Assembly: GCF_014204915.1 (NCBI RefSeq)
Contig: NZ_JACHMH010000001.1
Coordinates: 3,183,001-3,247,000 of the forward strand
Direction: 5' to 3'
DNA: 64,000 nt
Source of the DNA: Crossiella cryophila
GTDB taxonomy: Bacteria; Actinomycetota; Actinomycetes; Mycobacteriales; Pseudonocardiaceae
Below, in pieces: positions 28,411 through 35,956 of the stretch (its first letter is position 1; each line of letters starts with the position of its first letter). Position numbers and translations under genes: made by a program. The notes below the pieces were generated by a model. The model was not told the DNA's origin. It saw only the letters and a program-made list of their open reading frames with translations, and made no database searches.

Positions 28411-29331
28411 TTGGCGGGTTGGCCAAATGGCAATCGAGGACGGGGCTGGATGCGGCGCGGGCGGGAATCCAAGGGGCAGCGGAGTGTGGTGCGTGGCCCG
28501 GTGCCCGGTCAGTACCCGGTGCGGTTCGGCATGGCCGAGTTGCTCGCCGATCTCGACTGGCCCAACGGCTGGCTGCTCAGTGTCGACGGTGTCGCCCAGT
28601 CCTATGTGGACCTTGACGACCCCACCCACCTGGAATTCGACTACATCCGCCGCATCGGTGACGTCATCGACTGCCTCGGCCAGCCCGAAGCCGCCCTGGA
28701 CGCCCTGCACATCGGCGGCGGCGCCTGCACCGTTCCCCGCTACATCGCGGCCACCCGGCCCGGTTCGCGGCAACTGGTCTTCGACGCCGACGGCGAACTG
28801 ATCGACCTGGTCCGCGAACACCTCCAGTTGCGCACCGTCCCCGCCCTGCGGGTACGGGTGTGCGACGGCAGGGAGGGGGTCACCACCCGGCGCGACGACT
28901 CGGCGGATCTTGTTGTCCTGGACGCCTTCCAAAGCGCCTCCATGCCCGGCGGCCTGGCCACCCAGGAGTTCGTCGGCGATATCGCCCGGGTACTGCGGCC
29001 GGAGGGCACCGTGATCGTCAACGTCACCGACGGCCCCGGCCTGAAGTTCGCCCGGCGCGTCGTGGCCACCCTGCGGCTGGTCTTCCCGCAGGTCCTGCTG
29101 GTCGCCGAACCAGCGGTGCTGCGCGGCCGCCGCTTCGGCAACCTGGTCCTGGTCGGCTCCACCGCGGACCTCCCGGTGGCGGAGATCACCACCCGGGTGC
29201 ACTCGGCGGCTTTCCCGGCGCGCTGTGTGTCCGATGCCGACCTGACCAAGCTGTGCGCGGGCGCCGAACCCATCAGTGACACCGCGCCCATGGTCGCCCC
29301 GGTGCCACCCAAGCGCGCATTCGGGGGTTGA
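28411..29331 (+). CDS. Spermidine synthase-like SAM-dependent protein
   Basis: A 306-residue soluble protein with the spermidine synthase/methyltransferase fold: HLEFDYIRRIGDVIDCL, ALHIGGGACTVPRYIAATRP (nucleotide loop near residue 113), FDADGELIDLV and ADLVVLDAFQSASMPGGLAT. The DAFQ block replaces the D-S-[ST]-D of true aminopropyltransferases, so a different methyl- or aminopropyl-transfer, or a non-enzymatic role, is possible. GGAGG ends six bases before the TTG at 28411, supporting it as start; an in-frame ATG at 28450 is an alternative. The stop codon overlaps the -35 of the next promoter. Confidence 0.85.
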   Translation: MAGWPNGNRGRGWMRRGRESKGQRSVVRGPVPGQYPVRFGMAELLADLDWPNGWLLSVDGVAQSYVDLDDPTHLEFDYIRRIGDVIDCLGQPEAALDALHIGGGACTVPRYIAATRPGSRQLVFDADGELIDLVREHLQLRTVPALRVRVCDGREGVTTRRDDSADLVVLDAFQSASMPGGLATQEFVGDIARVLRPEGTVIVNVTDGPGLKFARRVVATLRLVFPQVLLVAEPAVLRGRRFGNLVLVGSTADLPVAEITTRVHSAAFPARCVSDADLTKLCAGAEPISDTAPMVAPVPPKRAFGG

Positions 29332-29365
29332 CCTCCAGCAAGCTGGAGGTTTCATGCTGCTTGCA
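29328..29365 (+). promoter_or_regulatory. MerR-type promoter of the Gfo/Idh gene, leaderless
   Basis: TTGACC (29328-29333) and CATGCT (29353-29358) are separated by 19 bases, the over-long spacing typical of promoters that MerR-family activators untwist. The spacer is almost filled by the perfect dyad ACCTCCAGCAAGCTGGAGGT (29331-29350). Six bases after the -10 comes the ATG at 29365, so transcription would begin on the start codon. No merR gene is in the window. Confidence 0.78.
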
Positions 29366-30633
29366 TGAGTAGGGCAATGCGAGTCGGGGTGATCGGCGCT
29401 GAGCTGGCGCGGGGCTGGGCTACCCGCGCGCATTTCCCCGCGCTGCAAGGACTTCCCGGCGTTGAGCTGTTCGCGGTGGCAGACCCGGAACAGTCCGCCA
29501 CCGCAGTCGCCGACCAGTGGGGCGCCCAGTTCGCCTGTGCCAACCCCACCGAACTGGTCACCCACCGCCAGGTGGACATCGTCACCATCGCGGGCCCGGT
29601 CCCCGGTCACGACGACCTGGTGCGCACCGCGCTGGCCGCGGGCAAACACGTCTTCTGCGAGTGGCCGCTGACCACCAACGTCCAATCCGCCATCGAACTC
29701 CGCACCCTGGCCGCCCAATCCGGCGTCCACCATGTCGTCGGCCTGCGCGGCCGAGCCGACCCCGGCGTACGTTTCGTCCGAGACCTCCTGGCGCGCGGCG
29801 AAATCGGCGAGGTACTCGGCGTGACCCTCAGCGCCGCGCCCGCCACCCCACCGGAATCCTCGGCCGGCGAGTCCCTGCTCACCGGCGACGGTGGCCAGGC
29901 CCTGGACATCCTCCGCTTCTGCCTGGGCGAACTCGCCGAACTCTCCGCGACCTTCGCCACCCGCTGCCCCGGCGTGAACTCCCCGGACCAGGTCCTCGTC
30001 CAGGGACTCCTGGAATCCGGCGTCGCCATCTCCGCGCACCTGCAAGCCGGCGCCCCCGGTGGCACTGGCTTCCGCATGGAGGTGCAGGGCCGCCGTGGTG
30101 CGCTGATCCTGGCCTGCCCGGGACGGATCGGCGAACAGGAGTCCACCGTGCTGTTGGCCCGGGGCTCGCGAGGTGGAGCAAGCACGATCGCCAGCCGGAT
30201 GCCAATGGGTTCACCAGCGGCAAGGATCGTGTCGACCACTGCGGCGATGGCCGAGCCGGAGACAGTCGCTTCGCCAGTCGAGGGCGACGGGTTCGAGGCG
30301 GTCGCCTCGCGGGTGATCGGGGCACGAGCCGACGGCAGGGCGGCGACTGCGCCTGCCGGGCCGGGCCTGCACCCATCGTGGGGAACCGCCTCGGTGCTGG
30401 AGTTGATGTCGGCGCTGGAGGTTCTTCCGGTGCCGGAGAGCTATCGGAGTGGGGTGGCCACGGTGTCGGCGGGGCCGGCGCAGGGCGTGGCCCGCCTGTA
30501 CGCGGAACTTGTGCGGGCGGTACGGACCGGGACACCGCAGGACCCGGACTTCACCACGGCGGTCGGATTGCACTGCCTGCTGGATACGGTGGCCGAAGCG
30601 GCGAGCAGCCGACGGTGTCGCAGCTTCGGCTGA
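29365..30633 (+). CDS. Gfo/Idh/MocA-family oxidoreductase with EWP motif
   Basis: A 422-residue NAD(P)-dependent oxidoreductase family member. The Rossmann fold begins at VGVIGAELARGWATRAHFPA, with ELFAVADPE ending strand 2 and VDIVTIAGPVPGHDDLVRTA following. The usual EKP triplet, whose lysine is catalytic, is EWP here (KHVFCEWPL near residue 98), as in Gal80-like relatives that bind NAD but do not reduce sugars; catalysis is therefore uncertain. The C-terminal domain carries LTGDGGQALDILRFCLGELAELSA. The ATG at 29365 rather than 29377 is chosen because the promoter places +1 there. Confidence 0.88.
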   Translation: MSRAMRVGVIGAELARGWATRAHFPALQGLPGVELFAVADPEQSATAVADQWGAQFACANPTELVTHRQVDIVTIAGPVPGHDDLVRTALAAGKHVFCEWPLTTNVQSAIELRTLAAQSGVHHVVGLRGRADPGVRFVRDLLARGEIGEVLGVTLSAAPATPPESSAGESLLTGDGGQALDILRFCLGELAELSATFATRCPGVNSPDQVLVQGLLESGVAISAHLQAGAPGGTGFRMEVQGRRGALILACPGRIGEQESTVLLARGSRGGASTIASRMPMGSPAARIVSTTAAMAEPETVASPVEGDGFEAVASRVIGARADGRAATAPAGPGLHPSWGTASVLELMSALEVLPVPESYRSGVATVSAGPAQGVARLYAELVRAVRTGTPQDPDFTTAVGLHCLLDTVAEAASSRRCRSFG

Positions 30634-30730
30634 CGGCAAGGCTCACTCCCGAGGGGGAACAGGCTCACCTCGCAGCGGGAGGGATCCCGCCGTGCCGGTG
30701 CGAGAGTGTTGGTGGCAGGGGAGCCTGGGG

Positions 30731-30762
30731 GTGGGCACGGCGACTCCGGTCGCCGTGCCCAC
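30731..30762. terminator. Strong hairpin between Gfo/Idh gene and tetR remnant
   Basis: GTGGGCACGGCGAC (30731-30744) pairs perfectly with GTCGCCGTGCCCAC (30749-30762) around a four-base TCCG loop. It lies three bases beyond the proposed stop of the tetR remnant on the minus strand and about 100 bases beyond the stop of the + strand oxidoreductase, so it can serve both. Confidence 0.82.
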
Positions 30763-30765
30763 GGC

Positions 30766-31259
30766 TCAACCGCGACGGCCTGGGCCGTGGGAAAGCGTGG
30801 TGACAACACGTTCGGCCAGGCCCGGCAGACCTCGGCAGCCAGCAGCCCGGCCGCGGTAATCCGCTCGGACAGTGCCTGCGACTTGCCCCGGGCCCGGTCT
30901 TCCGACGACAGCGTCTCGGAATCGGTCAGCGCCTGCCGCTTCGGTGTGCACCGCCGGACGCTCTTCACCGTCACCAGATTCGCGGCCAGTTGGTGCAAGG
31001 CGACCAGCGGCGGCGCGGTTTCGGTGCAGGCGGCATTGATCGCGTGCTCGACCTGGGCCATGATGGCGTCAATCATCGCCGCCACCAGGGCCTCTCGGGT
31101 GGCGAACCGGCGGTGCACGGTCGTGCGGGCCACTCCGGCGGCGTTGGCGATCTGCCGCACTGTGGTCGTTGGATCCGCGCTCAGCAAACGGTCGGCCACG
31201 CGCAGGAACGCGTGGTGGGTGCGTTCCGCATCCGCGCGTAGCGGCGGTTCCAAGGACAT
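30766..31259 (-). pseudogene. TetR-family regulator with a probable one-base frameshift
   Basis: Begins as a normal TetR repressor: TTVRQIANAAGVARTTVHRRFATREALVAAMID near residues 30-62. The same frame holds to ITAAGLLAAEVCRAW, then turns into sequence unlike any TetR protein and would run through a terminator and antisense into the neighbouring oxidoreductase gene. If one G is restored in CCTGGCC near 30822, the reading becomes CRAWAERVVTTLSHGPGRRG and stops at 30766, three bases before a perfect terminator, giving 164 residues. A true mutation or a sequencing error would both explain this. It is divergent from an aldo/keto reductase with a symmetrical site between them. Confidence 0.65.
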
Positions 31260-31291
31260 GGGCAGGCGATACCCAGCCGTTGCATCTCTCC

Positions 31292-31323
31292 GTGAATACG
31301 CAACATGGGTGTTGTGTATTCAC
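31292..31323. promoter_or_regulatory. TetR-type operator upstream of the aldo/keto reductase
   Basis: GTGAATACGCAACA (31292-31305) and TGTTGTGTATTCAC (31310-31323) are inverted arms with one mismatch around TGGG. The right arm overlaps TTGTGT (31312), a possible -35 that pairs with TACGGT (31334-31339) at 16 bases. The site lies between the divergent tetR remnant and the reductase gene, so it is the likely binding site of that TetR protein. Confidence 0.75.
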
Positions 31324-31394
31324 ATTAAGCCGATACGGTGATGTCTCGGGTCGAGCAGATCCGTTATCCCACCACAAACTGAGGGACACGAGAC

Positions 31395-32438
31395 ATGCGG
31401 CTGCGCACCCTCGGCGGCACCGGAATCAAGGTCAGCCCCTACTGCCTCGGCGCGATGATGTTCGGCGCCATGGGCAACGCCGACCACGGCGAAGCGGTAC
31501 GAATGATCCACACCGCGTTCGACGCGGGAATCAACCTCGTGGACACCGCCGACGTCTACTCCAACGGCGAGTCCGAGGAAATCCTCGGCAAGGCACTCAA
31601 AGGCCGCCGCGACGACATCGTCGTGGCCAGCAAGGCGCACCTACCGATGGGCGAGGACGCCAACCGGCGCGGCGGCTCCCGCCGGTGGCTGGTGCGCGCC
31701 GTGGAGGACAGCCTCCGCCGGCTCGACGTCGACCACCTGGACCTGTACCAGCTACACCGGCCCGACGAGGACACCGCCCTGGACGAAACCCTTGGGGCAC
31801 TGTCAGATCTGGTGCGCTCGGGCAAGGTTCGCGCGGCGGGCACCTCGACCTTCCCGGCCGAACTCATCGTGGAAATGCAGTGGGAGTCGGAACGGCGCGG
31901 CCATGTTCGGATGCGCACCGAGCAGCCGCCCTATTCGATTTTCAACCGTGCAGCCGAAACCTCCGTTCTGCCGACCTGCGCTCGATATGGAATGGGCGTG
32001 CTGACCTGGGGCCCGCTCAACCGGGGCTGGCTCACCGGCCGCTACCGGCCCGGCTACCAGCTGCCCGAGGGCGCGCACCCGGTGCAGCAGCAGATGTTCC
32101 ACCCGGCGATCCCCGCCAACGCGCGGAAGTACGCCGTGATCGAACAGCTGCTCAAGCTCGCCGCGGACTCGGGCCACTCGCTGGCCCACCTCGCCGTGGC
32201 GTTCGTGCTGTCCCACCCCGCGGTGACCTCGGCCATCATCGGCCCACGCACCCCGGAGCAGCTCGCGGACCTGTTGGCGGGCAAGGACACCGTGCTCGAG
32301 GACGAGGTGCTGAACCGCATCGACGAACTGGTGCCGCCCGGCACGGTCCTGAATCCCGACGACAGCTTCTACCAGCCGCCGGGCATCACCGACCTGAGCC
32401 AGCGTCGCCGTCCACGGGAGACCAGGGCCGCGGTCTGA
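31395..32438 (+). CDS. Aldo/keto reductase
   Basis: A 347-residue NADPH-dependent carbonyl reductase family member with the whole catalytic tetrad visible: Asp and Tyr in NLVDTADVYSNGESE, Lys in VVASKAHLP and His in LDLYQLHRPD. C-terminal SAIIGPRTPEQLADLL is the cofactor-binding loop common in the YajO/YccK-like branch (AKR11/12). GAGGG lies upstream of the ATG. Adjacent TetR remnant and operator suggest it was once a repressor-controlled response to a small molecule; if the regulator is broken it may now be constitutive. Confidence 0.93.
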   Translation: MRLRTLGGTGIKVSPYCLGAMMFGAMGNADHGEAVRMIHTAFDAGINLVDTADVYSNGESEEILGKALKGRRDDIVVASKAHLPMGEDANRRGGSRRWLVRAVEDSLRRLDVDHLDLYQLHRPDEDTALDETLGALSDLVRSGKVRAAGTSTFPAELIVEMQWESERRGHVRMRTEQPPYSIFNRAAETSVLPTCARYGMGVLTWGPLNRGWLTGRYRPGYQLPEGAHPVQQQMFHPAIPANARKYAVIEQLLKLAADSGHSLAHLAVAFVLSHPAVTSAIIGPRTPEQLADLLAGKDTVLEDEVLNRIDELVPPGTVLNPDDSFYQPPGITDLSQRRRPRETRAAV

Positions 32439-33673
32439 CCCCGGCGCGCAGCGAGGACCACACGCCGGGGACAGATCCGCACCGGCCAGGTTCGGGCGGT
32501 GCCGGGCCAGCCTTGGCCCAACCCCATCCGGTCGGCCTCCACTGGGGCCGCACGGGCAACACGGGATGGATCCACTCCCGTGCGGGCTCGTGCGGTCCAG
32601 CGGAAGCCGCCGGCCGAGTTGAGGCAGTCGCGACCATGCCTCAACTCGCAGGGGCTTGCTGGGCAGTCCTCGCGGTTCGCACCCCGGACGATCTGGCGGC
32701 TGAGCCGTCCTAGGCCGGCTCAGTGCCTGGATCGATGGGGTGCCGGCCGCGGGGACCGGCTTGGCTGGCCCGGCACGGACAGGTAGTCCTGCCTGGCCTG
32801 GCCGGAGCCCTTGTCGCCTCATCTCGGACCCGAGCCCTGACCGCGGTCGCACTGTGTGCCTGGCAGGACTGCGTGCCTGCCGGGCAACGTGCCTGGCTGG
32901 TAGCCGGGGCCGGCGGACAACTGGACCTGCTCGGACGGTCCAGTGCGCCGATGCCCCGGCGGGGCCTGCCGAACCAGCGGGATGGGTTCTCCGGCTTGGC
33001 TTGCCGCCGGACTGGCTCGAAGAAGTCCGGGAGCAGTGCCGCGCCTGGCCGCTGTGGGCTGGTTCAGCGAGGGCCGGGCCTGCCGCGCCGAGGTTGGCCT
33101 GAAAGGAATCGACTCGACTGCGGGTGCGTGCCGCGGTGGGGGTGACCGGGATGAGGCGGTTCGGGCTGGGGATGGTGGCCTGGTGGGGATATGGGTGTGG
33201 GGACCTCCTGATTCTGGTTGACATGGCGGAACCTGGGCGTGGATCGCACACACGCGGGGCAATATCGGGCTGAGTACTCGGCCCGCCTCCGGTTCGGCGG
33301 CACGGCGGGGGAGTTGCACAACGCGAACCAGACCCGGAGCTCTCGGGTCACCTGAAGCTGGTCGGCATCAGGAGCCACGCGATGCAGCAGAGGACGGAAG
33401 ATACCTGGCCACCAGGGAACGTCCTCGCCATGCACAGTAGCGCCTCCGAGGGGAGGTTCCGACCATGTCCTGGCCAAACGTAGCCAGTTCCCACGACCGT
33501 GGGATACCGCCGCCAGGGTCTTGCCGAAACGGCGGCACAATCAGTGATGTCTGGTGGTTTCGAGTACGTGAACTCGGGCCTGACTCATACTTTGGGGGGT
33601 ACCGGACAGGAGGCTGCAACCGATTGTGTTCGTCGCATTGACGGAACGACGACGCGCAAACGGGGCAACGACG
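32439..33673. other. Gene-poor stretch between aldo/keto reductase and glycosyltransferase
   Basis: About 1.2 kb in which no open frame on either strand shows a recognisable domain or a ribosome-binding site with sensible composition. The only structured element is the inverted repeat at 32615-32648. GTGCCTGGC-like words recur around 32850-32900. The stretch resembles decayed accessory DNA, but no transposase or known gene fragment could be named. Confidence 0.55.
32615..32648. terminator. Perfect 12-bp inverted repeat downstream of the aldo/keto reductase
   Basis: CGAGTTGAGGCA (32615-32626) pairs perfectly with TGCCTCAACTCG (32637-32648), loop of ten bases. It lies about 180 bases after the reductase stop. 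It is less GC-rich than its surroundings and lacks a T-run, so a protein-binding site is the alternative. Confidence 0.45.
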
Positions 33674-34948
33674 ATGAACGTGCTGCTGCTCGCCTATGGC
33701 TCGCTGGGGGACATCCAGCCTTTCGTCGCGCTCGGCCGCGCGCTCGATCGCGCTGGTCACAAGGTGGTGCTGGCCGCGCCCGCCCGCTTCGAGTCCTACG
33801 TCGCCGAGCACGATTTGCCTTTTGCGCCGATCAGTGATGCCCTTGTTGAGCTGGCCGACAGCGCGGAGCTTCGAGCTTCGCGAGAAGGCGGCGCGCTGCA
33901 ATCCGGAGTGGCCTGGCTCGAAGCCCTCCGGCGCGGCGAGGACGCGGCGACCGCTGTGCTCGAGGACAGCTGGGCGGCCGCGGCGTTCGGGCCCGACCTG
34001 GTGGTACATCACCCAATCACGGCTGGGCAGCACATCGCGGAGAAGCTACGAGTTCCGTCGGTGCTGGCCTCGCCGCAACCTTCCTACGTGCCGACGGATG
34101 CGTTCCCCTGTTCGCTGATCTCGGTGCCGGACTGGCTGCCGCCGGCGTTCAACCGGTTCACCTACACACTGCTCGCCTGGTCCGGACGACTGCTGTCCGG
34201 ACCGACCGACCGGTGGCGGGAGCAGGTGCTCGGCCTGCCTCGGCGCCGGGGATCGCACGACCCGCTGCGCCAGCCGGACGGCAGGCACACGACGGTGCTG
34301 CACGCGTTCAGCCCGCACGTGTTCCCGCCCGCGCCGGACTGGCCGGATGCCGTGCACAGCATGGGTTACTGGTTCCTGCCCGCGGCCACGGACTGGGCAC
34401 CGCCGGGTGAGCTGGTGGAGTTCCTGGACGCCGGTTCACCACCGGTGTGCGTGACCTTCGGCAGCACTGTCGGCGGCGATCCGCGGCGCTCGGCGCGCAC
34501 CGTCCTGGACGCGGTGCGGCTGGCGGGTGTGCGGGCGGTGCTGGTGTCCGGCTGGGGCGGATTGCAGGCGGACGAACTGCCCGCGGAGGTCTTCCAGGCC
34601 GAGCACGTGCCGTTCGACTGGCTGTTCCCCAGGGTGTCCGCGGTGGTGCATCACGGTGGCGGCGGCACCAGCGCCGCGGCCGTCGCTGCCGGACGGCCGC
34701 AGGTGACCTGCCCGTTCGGGGTGGACCAACCGCAGTGGGCACGGCGGATGCACCAGCTCGGAGTGGCGCCGCCGCCGATTCCGCAGCGCACGCTGACCAC
34801 GGCCGCGCTGGCCGAGGCGATCCACCTCGCCGCAACCGACGCGGCCATGGCACAGCGCGCGGAACGGCTCGGCAAGCTGGTGAACGCCGAGCCTGGCGCC
34901 GAGGCCGCGGTGACGGTGCTGGAAAAACTCGTGTCGCGTAAGGCTTGA
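33674..34948 (+). CDS. UDP-glycosyltransferase-like glycosyltransferase (GT1 type)
   Basis: A 424-residue GT-B enzyme. The N-terminal acceptor domain opens with VLLLAYGSLGDIQPFVALG and VVLAAPARFESYV; the C-terminal donor domain has VCVTFGSTVGG and the nucleotide-sugar signature VHHGGGGTSAAAVAAGRPQV, then FGVDQPQWARRMHQLGV. It resembles actinomycete enzymes that glycosylate polyketides, sterols or flavonoids, such as macrolide or glycopeptide glycosyltransferases. The ATG is chosen because the family starts here; an in-frame extension to 33626 has no support. No sugar biosynthesis genes are near. Its stop overlaps the promoter of the next gene. Confidence 0.88.
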   Translation: MNVLLLAYGSLGDIQPFVALGRALDRAGHKVVLAAPARFESYVAEHDLPFAPISDALVELADSAELRASREGGALQSGVAWLEALRRGEDAATAVLEDSWAAAAFGPDLVVHHPITAGQHIAEKLRVPSVLASPQPSYVPTDAFPCSLISVPDWLPPAFNRFTYTLLAWSGRLLSGPTDRWREQVLGLPRRRGSHDPLRQPDGRHTTVLHAFSPHVFPPAPDWPDAVHSMGYWFLPAATDWAPPGELVEFLDAGSPPVCVTFGSTVGGDPRRSARTVLDAVRLAGVRAVLVSGWGGLQADELPAEVFQAEHVPFDWLFPRVSAVVHHGGGGTSAAAVAAGRPQVTCPFGVDQPQWARRMHQLGVAPPPIPQRTLTTAALAEAIHLAATDAAMAQRAERLGKLVNAEPGAEAAVTVLEKLVSRKA

Positions 34949-34982
34949 CCTGGAGCGCGCTCCAGCCGACAGGCTCGGCGCA
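34945..34982 (+). promoter_or_regulatory. MerR-type promoter of the second aldo/keto reductase, leaderless
   Basis: TTGACC (34945-34950) and CAGGCT (34970-34975) lie 19 bases apart. The perfect palindrome CTGGAGCGCGCTCCAG (34950-34965) occupies the spacer. The ATG begins six bases after the -10, the same geometry as at 29328. The dyad sequence differs from that one, so the same or a related MerR protein may act; none is encoded here. Confidence 0.78.
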
Positions 34983-35956
34983 TGCGAAAGATCACCCTTG
35001 GCGGGCCGGACGGACCGCGGGCCAGCGTGTTGTGCCTTGGCGCGTTGCCGTTCGGGTCCTCAGTGGACCGGGACACCTCCTTCGCCATCCTCGCCCGGTT
35101 CGTCGAGGCCGGCGGGAACTTCATCGACTCCGCGAACAACTACGTGTTCTGGACCGAGAGCGGAAAGGGCGACGAGAGCGAGAACCTGCTCGGAGATTGG
35201 TTGCGCACCAGGGGAAACCGGTCCGAGGTGGTGCTGGCGTCCAAGGTGGGCGCGCTGCCGGACCCGGCCAAGCCCGGGGCGTTCCCGGACAACGCGGAAG
35301 GCCTGTCCGCCGAGGTGATCAGCACCCAGCTCGACAACAGTCTGCGTCGGCTGGGCACTGACCACCTGGACGTGTACTACGCGCACATGGAGGACCGCTC
35401 CGTGCCGCTGGCCGAGACGGTCGGCGCGTTCGGCAAGGCCGTCGTACAGGGCAAGGTGCGGGTGCCCGGCTGCAGCAACCACCCGACCTGGCGGATCGAC
35501 CGCGCGCGGGAACTGGCGAAGCAGGACGGGCTCGCACCGTACGGCGTTCTGCAGTTCCGGCACAGCTACCTCCGGCCGCGGCCGGACGTCAAGCTGCGCC
35601 AGGCCGGGCACGTCCAGGCCAGCGATGAGCTGCTGGACTACGTGCGCACCGAGGACAACCTGGTGCTGACCGCGTACACGACGTTGCTGTTCGGGGCCTA
35701 CACCCGGCCGGACCGGCCGTTGCACGAGCACTACGACCACCCGGGGACTCAGCGCAAGATCGCCGTGCTCCAGGCGGTGGCCACCGAACTGGGCGCCACG
35801 GTGAACCAGGTGGTGCTGGCGTGGCTGTTGCACGGCAACCCGTTGGTGGTGCCGGTGCTGGGGGTCAGCTCGGTGGCGCAGCTGGAGGAGTCACTGGCCG
35901 CGGCGGAGTTGGAACTGAGCGCGGACCAGCTGGCCCGGTTGGCCGCGGCCTGCTGA
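34982..35956 (+). CDS. Aldo/keto reductase, distinct subfamily
   Basis: A 324-residue protein. Catalytic residues are visible: Asp and Tyr in NFIDSANNYVFW, Lys in VVLASKVGAL and His in DVYYAHMEDRSV. It differs strongly from the reductase at 31395, for example YAHMED in place of YQLHRPD, and is of the group often found under MerR control in actinomycetes. The start is fixed by the promoter geometry; the message would be leaderless. Product and substrate unknown. Confidence 0.9.
   Translation: MRKITLGGPDGPRASVLCLGALPFGSSVDRDTSFAILARFVEAGGNFIDSANNYVFWTESGKGDESENLLGDWLRTRGNRSEVVLASKVGALPDPAKPGAFPDNAEGLSAEVISTQLDNSLRRLGTDHLDVYYAHMEDRSVPLAETVGAFGKAVVQGKVRVPGCSNHPTWRIDRARELAKQDGLAPYGVLQFRHSYLRPRPDVKLRQAGHVQASDELLDYVRTEDNLVLTAYTTLLFGAYTRPDRPLHEHYDHPGTQRKIAVLQAVATELGATVNQVVLAWLLHGNPLVVPVLGVSSVAQLEESLAAAELELSADQLARLAAAC

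Follow-up and report, generated by a model that had tools for sequence, protein, structure and literature searches.

MerR-family regulators activate transcription by untwisting the promoter spacer on effector binding, and leaderless promoters of actinobacteria carry TANNNT 6-7 bases upstream of the start codon. We take HI_0186 (structure 5e01) to be an NmlR whose sensor residue is the cysteine at QCLKNTGM. The closest described regulon is that of SoxR in Streptomyces: in S. coelicolor the SoxR box precedes redox enzymes, for example a flavoprotein reductase and a quinone oxidoreductase (PMC4146615), and the Discussion of that paper lists the S. avermitilis transketolase SAV_1623 with a SoxR site.

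Here we examine a 64,000-nucleotide stretch of the Crossiella cryophila genome (contig NZ_JACHMH010000001.1, positions 3,183,001 to 3,247,000), referred to as the window, in which two promoters of identical geometry, at 29328 and 34945, stand before two oxidoreductase genes. The initial annotation suggested a common regulon; this did not hold, as their half-sites differ and position-specific matrices send them to different sensors. From sequence comparison we consider it probable that two MerR-family activators, SoxR and an NmlR-like protein, use one leaderless promoter geometry, which recurs in the family Pseudonocardiaceae, and control two predicted regulons. Two orphan stress promoters are thereby assigned to named candidate sensor genes, and the two small predicted regulons come with a conserved module that can be searched for.

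Layout and conservation of the two promoters

Both promoters lie on the forward strand. Site 1 reads TTGACC (29328..29333), TCCAGCAAGCTGGAGGTTT, CATGCT (29353..29358), GCTTGC and the ATG at 29365; site 2 reads TTGACC (34945..34950), TGGAGCGCGCTCCAGCCGA, CAGGCT (34970..34975), CGGCGC and the ATG at 34982. The annotated succession of a TTGACC -35 element, 19-base spacer, NANNNT -10 element, six bases and ATG is present at both positions, and, counted from the first T of TTGACC as 0, the dyad axis of both sites falls at 12.5, the -10 element occupies 25-30 and the ATG starts at 37. A perfect dyad was also found at both. At site 1 its arms are ACCTCCAGC and GCTGGAGGT with 2 bases (AA) in between (29331..29350, a predicted SoxR-type box); at site 2 they are CTGGAGCG and CGCTCCAG with 0 bases in between (CTGGAGCGCGCTCCAG, 34950..34965, the predicted box of the NmlR-like MerR). 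The dyads are not, however, confined to the spacer, where the annotation had put them: each starts within the -35 element and so overlaps it. A spacer of 19-20 bases, on which an inverted repeat is centred, characterizes MerR-type promoters, and both sites have this geometry, as had been proposed.

The preceding open reading frame (ORF) ends, at both sites, with the TGA contained in TTGACC, in agreement with the annotated overlap. The upstream gene at site 1 is spermidine-synthase/methyltransferase-like (28411..29331, plus strand; stop at 29329-29331), and that at site 2 encodes a glycosyltransferase with GT28 and EryCIII-like domains (33674..34948, or from 33626, plus strand). Downstream are two enzymes that are indeed unrelated, a Gfo/Idh/MocA oxidoreductase (29365..30633, plus strand) and an aldo/keto reductase (AKR; 34982..35956, plus strand). 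We scanned both strands of the window for TTGAC[CTA] combined with a correctly spaced A and T of the -10 element and a dyad with 5/7 or more pairs, and obtained sites 1 and 2 only; none of 300 first-order simulated windows held a site with a 7/7 dyad. MerR_1 has 38 matches in the whole 10.06 Mb single-contig genome and none inside the window, so that, as annotated, no MerR gene is nearby and the candidate sensors are encoded elsewhere.

With only six bases separating the -10 element from the ATG, both genes would be transcribed from the start codon itself, giving mRNAs that lack a leader. The annotated +1 at the start codon is supported as a prediction; the -10-to-ATG distance and the start are both kept in 5/5 genus genomes. 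The distance between -10 and start codon is like that of actinobacterial leaderless promoters, from which the present sites differ in joining it with a 19-base MerR spacer and a dyad. Our literature search, which covered titles and abstract openings in a collection of PMC papers, returned no description of leaderless MerR or SoxR promoters in actinobacteria.

The genus comparison comprised five genomes, the window's own included. A relative of each enzyme gene is present in 5/5, and all five retain both promoters with their TTGACC, the overlap with the stop codon and a start, predicted to be leaderless, at +37 or +38 (+38 for the AKR gene in genome G001). The four central bases of site 1 vary (CAAG, TTCA, CTTA, CTTA and TCGA) and its arms are constant except for one right-arm base in G003 and G004; its -10 element is CATGCT in four genomes and CATCCT in one. 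The dyad of site 2 is identical in 5/5, and the -10 element is CAGGCT in four and GAGGGT in G001. The second in-frame ATG of the Gfo/Idh gene (+49) is TTG in 2/5 genomes, which favours the +37 start.

Site classes in the genome and the family

We searched the genome with the pattern of site 1 (ACCTCCAG arms, class A) and that of site 2 (CCTGGAGC arms, class B), merging palindrome matches on the reverse strand into one place. When up to 3 mismatches were allowed, class A yielded 19 strand-wise matches against 0 for reversed-pattern controls; a limit of 2 left 8 distinct places, one of them (6322041) lacking a gene at the expected spacing. The class A set also took in five 3-mismatch sites where a gene starts at +37 or +38. 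The class B set was drawn from 8 matches with up to 2 mismatches, 6 of them retained for a gene at a fitting distance. Places with no gene start at the usual position were dropped (class A 6322041, 7246396 and 8757811; class B 1789727, 3599616, 1814642 and 7310709).

Seven of the 10 class A proteins matched a Pfam family at 1e-6: an FMN reductase, a questin-oxidase-like protein, an Fe/Mn superoxide dismutase (SOD), a zinc-type reductase, two arylamine N-acetyltransferases and a transketolase N-domain. Besides the window AKR, class B precedes two short-chain dehydrogenases/reductases (SDRs), a second AKR, a luciferase-type enzyme and the gene of the NmlR-like MerR itself. These predicted targets are in line with the redox- or electrophile-type function suggested by the annotation. 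Start codons lie at +37 to +39 in 15 of the 18 tabulated genome targets, with offsets set by eye.

Among 200 genomes of the family (Pseudonocardiaceae), exact class A sites occur in 48 (controls, 0) and exact class B sites in 101 (1 reversed control match). For the promoter alignment we used 28 readable class A loci (L141 left out) and 30 class B loci; the 42-codon product at L013 was left unclassified. The -10 element is nearly fixed: position +26 is A and position +30 is T in 28/28 class A loci, and the corresponding class B counts are 27/30 and 30/30. Overlap of the -35 element with the stop codon of an ORF of at least 100 codons is common and not general (7/28 class A and 9/30 class B sites). 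Outside the genus, the -10 element is CAGGCT in six of the seven class B promoters found before AKR relatives.

The overlap with TGA, and the stable hairpin formed at site 1, might suggest that each dyad, which begins at the stop codon, serves the upstream gene as an intrinsic terminator. We rejected this explanation and give it practically no chance: a terminator scan found no terminator-like site in 28900-35400, the 8 bases following each dyad include 1 to 4 T, the fold z-scores are -1.32 and +0.62, and only the minority of family sites counted above close an ORF of that length. The -10 element and start codon fixed downstream also speak against terminators.

Candidate sensors and assignment of the sites

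To assign the sites, we built a SoxR matrix from 24 distinct soxR-linked transketolase promoters, excluding exact class A, and an NmlR-like matrix from 39 distinct NmlR-like gene promoters. Site 1 scored +22.3 with the SoxR matrix and -3.9 with the NmlR-like matrix, and site 2 scored -4.9 and +18.2; the box of site 1 is thus like those of soxR-linked promoters. The identical -35 element, spacer length, dyad axis and start distance could point to one shared MerR regulator driving both promoters. We consider this very improbable. The half-sites differ, and a single regulon was rejected chiefly because of the opposite matrix scores; in addition, class B tracks the NmlR-like gene across genomes, as described below. 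The promoter type recurs around several different MerR genes, so the layout alone does not point to a shared regulator, and identical promoter geometry by itself is no evidence for one.

The genome encodes two SoxR proteins, at 9184716 and 5639681, which score 201.8 and 215.9 bits with TIGR01950 (curated cut-off 116.9). Both contain the SoxR cluster motif, CX2CXCX5C (CIGCGCLSLRSC and CIGCGCLSLQNC). A scan by geometry only across 92 soxR loci (369,797 bases) found 43 leaderless MerR-type promoters. The same scan around the NmlR-like gene (495,827 bases) found 79, all of them promoters of that gene: 74 coincide with its start position, and the remaining 5 belong to it as well. Relaxing the dyad cut gave 44 soxR-linked promoters, of which 32 stand before a transketolase-like product, identified through a short sequence motif, with Pfam run on one. 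Their boxes typically have ACCTCCAG, ACCTCGAG or ACCTCGAC as the left arm and GTCGAGGT as the right arm, and at two of these transketolase-like genes (in genomes G178 and G048), 0.6-0.7 kb from soxR, the palindrome is exactly class A. The window's own genome has TTGACCTCCAGTTTGGTCGAGGT as the box separating the soxR at 9184716 from the divergent transketolase gene; one of its arms is class A. The sensor of site 1 is predicted to be one of the two SoxR proteins, with that at 9184716, whose divergent transketolase promoter shares the ACCTCCAG arm, perhaps the likelier candidate.

This arrangement resembles the S. coelicolor regulon (PMC4146615) in that a SoxR-type box precedes redox enzymes, and the soxR-linked transketolase promoters recall the S. 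avermitilis transketolase with its SoxR site. It differs in that the predicted targets here include SOD and arylamine acetyltransferases, and the SoxR target table in the Discussion of that paper holds no Gfo/Idh gene. The box differs as well: the arms here are ACCTCCAG, whereas the E. coli-type box (TTGACCTCAAG..CTTGAGGT) is present in 5/200 family genomes and was rejected as the main form in the family.

Site 1 might instead be read by a MerR protein other than SoxR, encoded at an unlinked locus, with a box that merely looks SoxR-like. This would suit the rarity of exact class A sites (48/200 genomes) relative to SoxR (194/200), and also the scarcity of neighbouring regulators: a search with 31 of the 38 MerR domains as queries, over 48 class A loci including duplicates and weak sites, placed a MerR gene within ~1.5 kb at only L026, L116 and L119. 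The MerR in all three, however, is SoxR (L026 has a second MerR too). The exact class A sites at soxR-linked transketolase promoters in two genomes, the redox-type target set of class A and, at 6208357 and 8630458, hybrid boxes in which one arm is the E. coli-like CTCAAG/CTTGAG likewise speak for SoxR, and we judge a different MerR protein at site 1 unlikely. The excess of SoxR over exact class A suggests that box form depends on lineage, and with SoxR in 194/200 genomes its presence is uninformative as a co-occurrence test for class A.

The gene of the NmlR-like MerR (G000:C1:1961117-1961515) lies 1.26 Mb from site 2, and a class B box starts 38 bases before its GTG. The protein is 98% identical to that of Crossiella sp. 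S99.2. The class B box precedes the orthologue in 30/30 family loci (three with variant letters). We also compared named-genome loci, taking the best 80 of at least 535: a class B-type box, exact in 65 and variant in 15, precedes the gene in all 80, none has class A, and the -10 element of the gene's own promoter is TANNGT in 80/80. The aligned starts are 37-39 bases from TTG in 78/80, and the remaining two also have a GTG at +39 and +38. The orthologue occurs in 104/200 family genomes, which points to an uncharacterised regulator shared by about half of them. Class B sites and close orthologues occur together in 95 genomes, with the site only in 6, the gene only in 9 and neither in 90; a looser orthologue cut gave 98, 3, 12 and 87, and counting by genus gave 25, 2, 4 and 15. 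Fisher values for this co-occurrence are merely indicative because the genomes are related.

The NmlR-like protein resembles NmlR-type regulators such as HI_0186 in that NmlR is its best NCBIfam family and 5e01 its second-best solved structure, and in its reductase targets. However, it scores 98.3 bits with NF041849, below the curated cut-off of 175, and the HI_0186 cysteine (LLQCLKNTGM) is replaced by K or R in 25/25 aligned orthologues. C103 is invariant in the same 25/25.

Some own-gene boxes depart from the common form. In Lentzea loci L225, L227, L233 and L234 the box of the NmlR-like gene is TAGAG..CTCTAG, both arms having changed together, and in six other Lentzea loci it is altered in one arm only. 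A record titled Candidatus Melainabacteria (L271) carries an NmlR-like gene (69% identity) with its box and is possibly a mis-binned actinobacterial contig.

From the geometry, conservation, co-occurrence and matrix scores we can propose how binding, inducers and activation might be connected. The SoxR-type box of the Gfo/Idh promoter would be read by one of the two SoxR proteins, which in the oxidised state, brought about for example by redox-cycling quinones, would untwist the spacer, overlong at 19 bases, and allow RNA polymerase to fire. The AKR promoter would carry the box of the NmlR-like MerR, in common with the regulator's own gene and the SDR, luciferase-type and other AKR genes, and the enzymes of this set presumably act on a reactive carbonyl or similar electrophile.

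Several observations count against this two-sensor scheme or its leaderless form. Site 1 (22.3) is slightly under the lowest leave-one-out score of the soxR-linked promoters (23.1), and site 2 (18.2) is under the lowest own-promoter score of its regulator (24.4), the other predicted targets of which score 14-22. With the SoxR matrix, a class C box scores 13.4 and the class B box at 4035001 scores 10.9, while some class A sites reach just 7-16 (7.3 at 8397162); the matrix clearly parts the two window sites, yet is no strict classifier. The soxR and NmlR-like stretches compared by geometry are unmatched in gene content, and exact class A is far rarer than SoxR, as noted above. In the genome, class B with up to 3 mismatches has 11 matches against 36 reversed controls; weak class B sites therefore carry no weight, and those with up to 2 mismatches were used. 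Several class A targets rest on 3-mismatch sites, and one acetyltransferase on a TGGACC -35 element. The FMN reductase (+66), the SOD (+71) and one AKR (+67) are not leaderless, and the first start is at +37 to +39 in 17/28 class A and 25/30 class B family loci, so not all are leaderless. Finally, the class B box precedes only 7/25 AKR relatives outside the genus.

A bolder proposal, which we hold tentatively and would put at somewhat under an even chance, is that in Pseudonocardiaceae several different MerR sensors, among them SoxR and the NmlR-like protein, switch leaderless genes through a rigid module of ~40 bases (-35 element, 19-base dyad, -10 element and start codon) and that the NmlR-like protein represents a new type of sensor, using the invariant C103 and not the NmlR cysteine. 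If so, MerR regulons would be readable directly from genome sequence.

Neighbouring genes and further boxes

The C-terminal third of the Gfo/Idh protein (29365-30633) is unmatched in 3/4 genus relatives, with matches stopping at residues 267-287, which suggests that the tail has diverged or been rearranged. The glycosyltransferase upstream of site 2 (33674-34948) is a weak match to the model of the rifamycin-inactivating Rgt (111.5 bits; cut-off 800). Between the two promoters, at 30799-31259 (minus strand) and 31395-32438 (plus strand), is the window's second AKR, paired with a TetR-type gene in divergent orientation. The start of this AKR is similar to the one of the class B-bearing AKR at 5933294, so similar enzymes may have different regulators.

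Elsewhere in the genome, a third box, CTAGAG..CTCTAG (L051:1234; G000:C1 ~8360039), is found close to another MerR gene, with an SDR starting at +37; the best family of this MerR is NmlR, below the cut-off. Three further MerR genes of the genome (L001, L045 and L054) likewise have MerR-type dyads nearby, and there too a start codon stands at +37.

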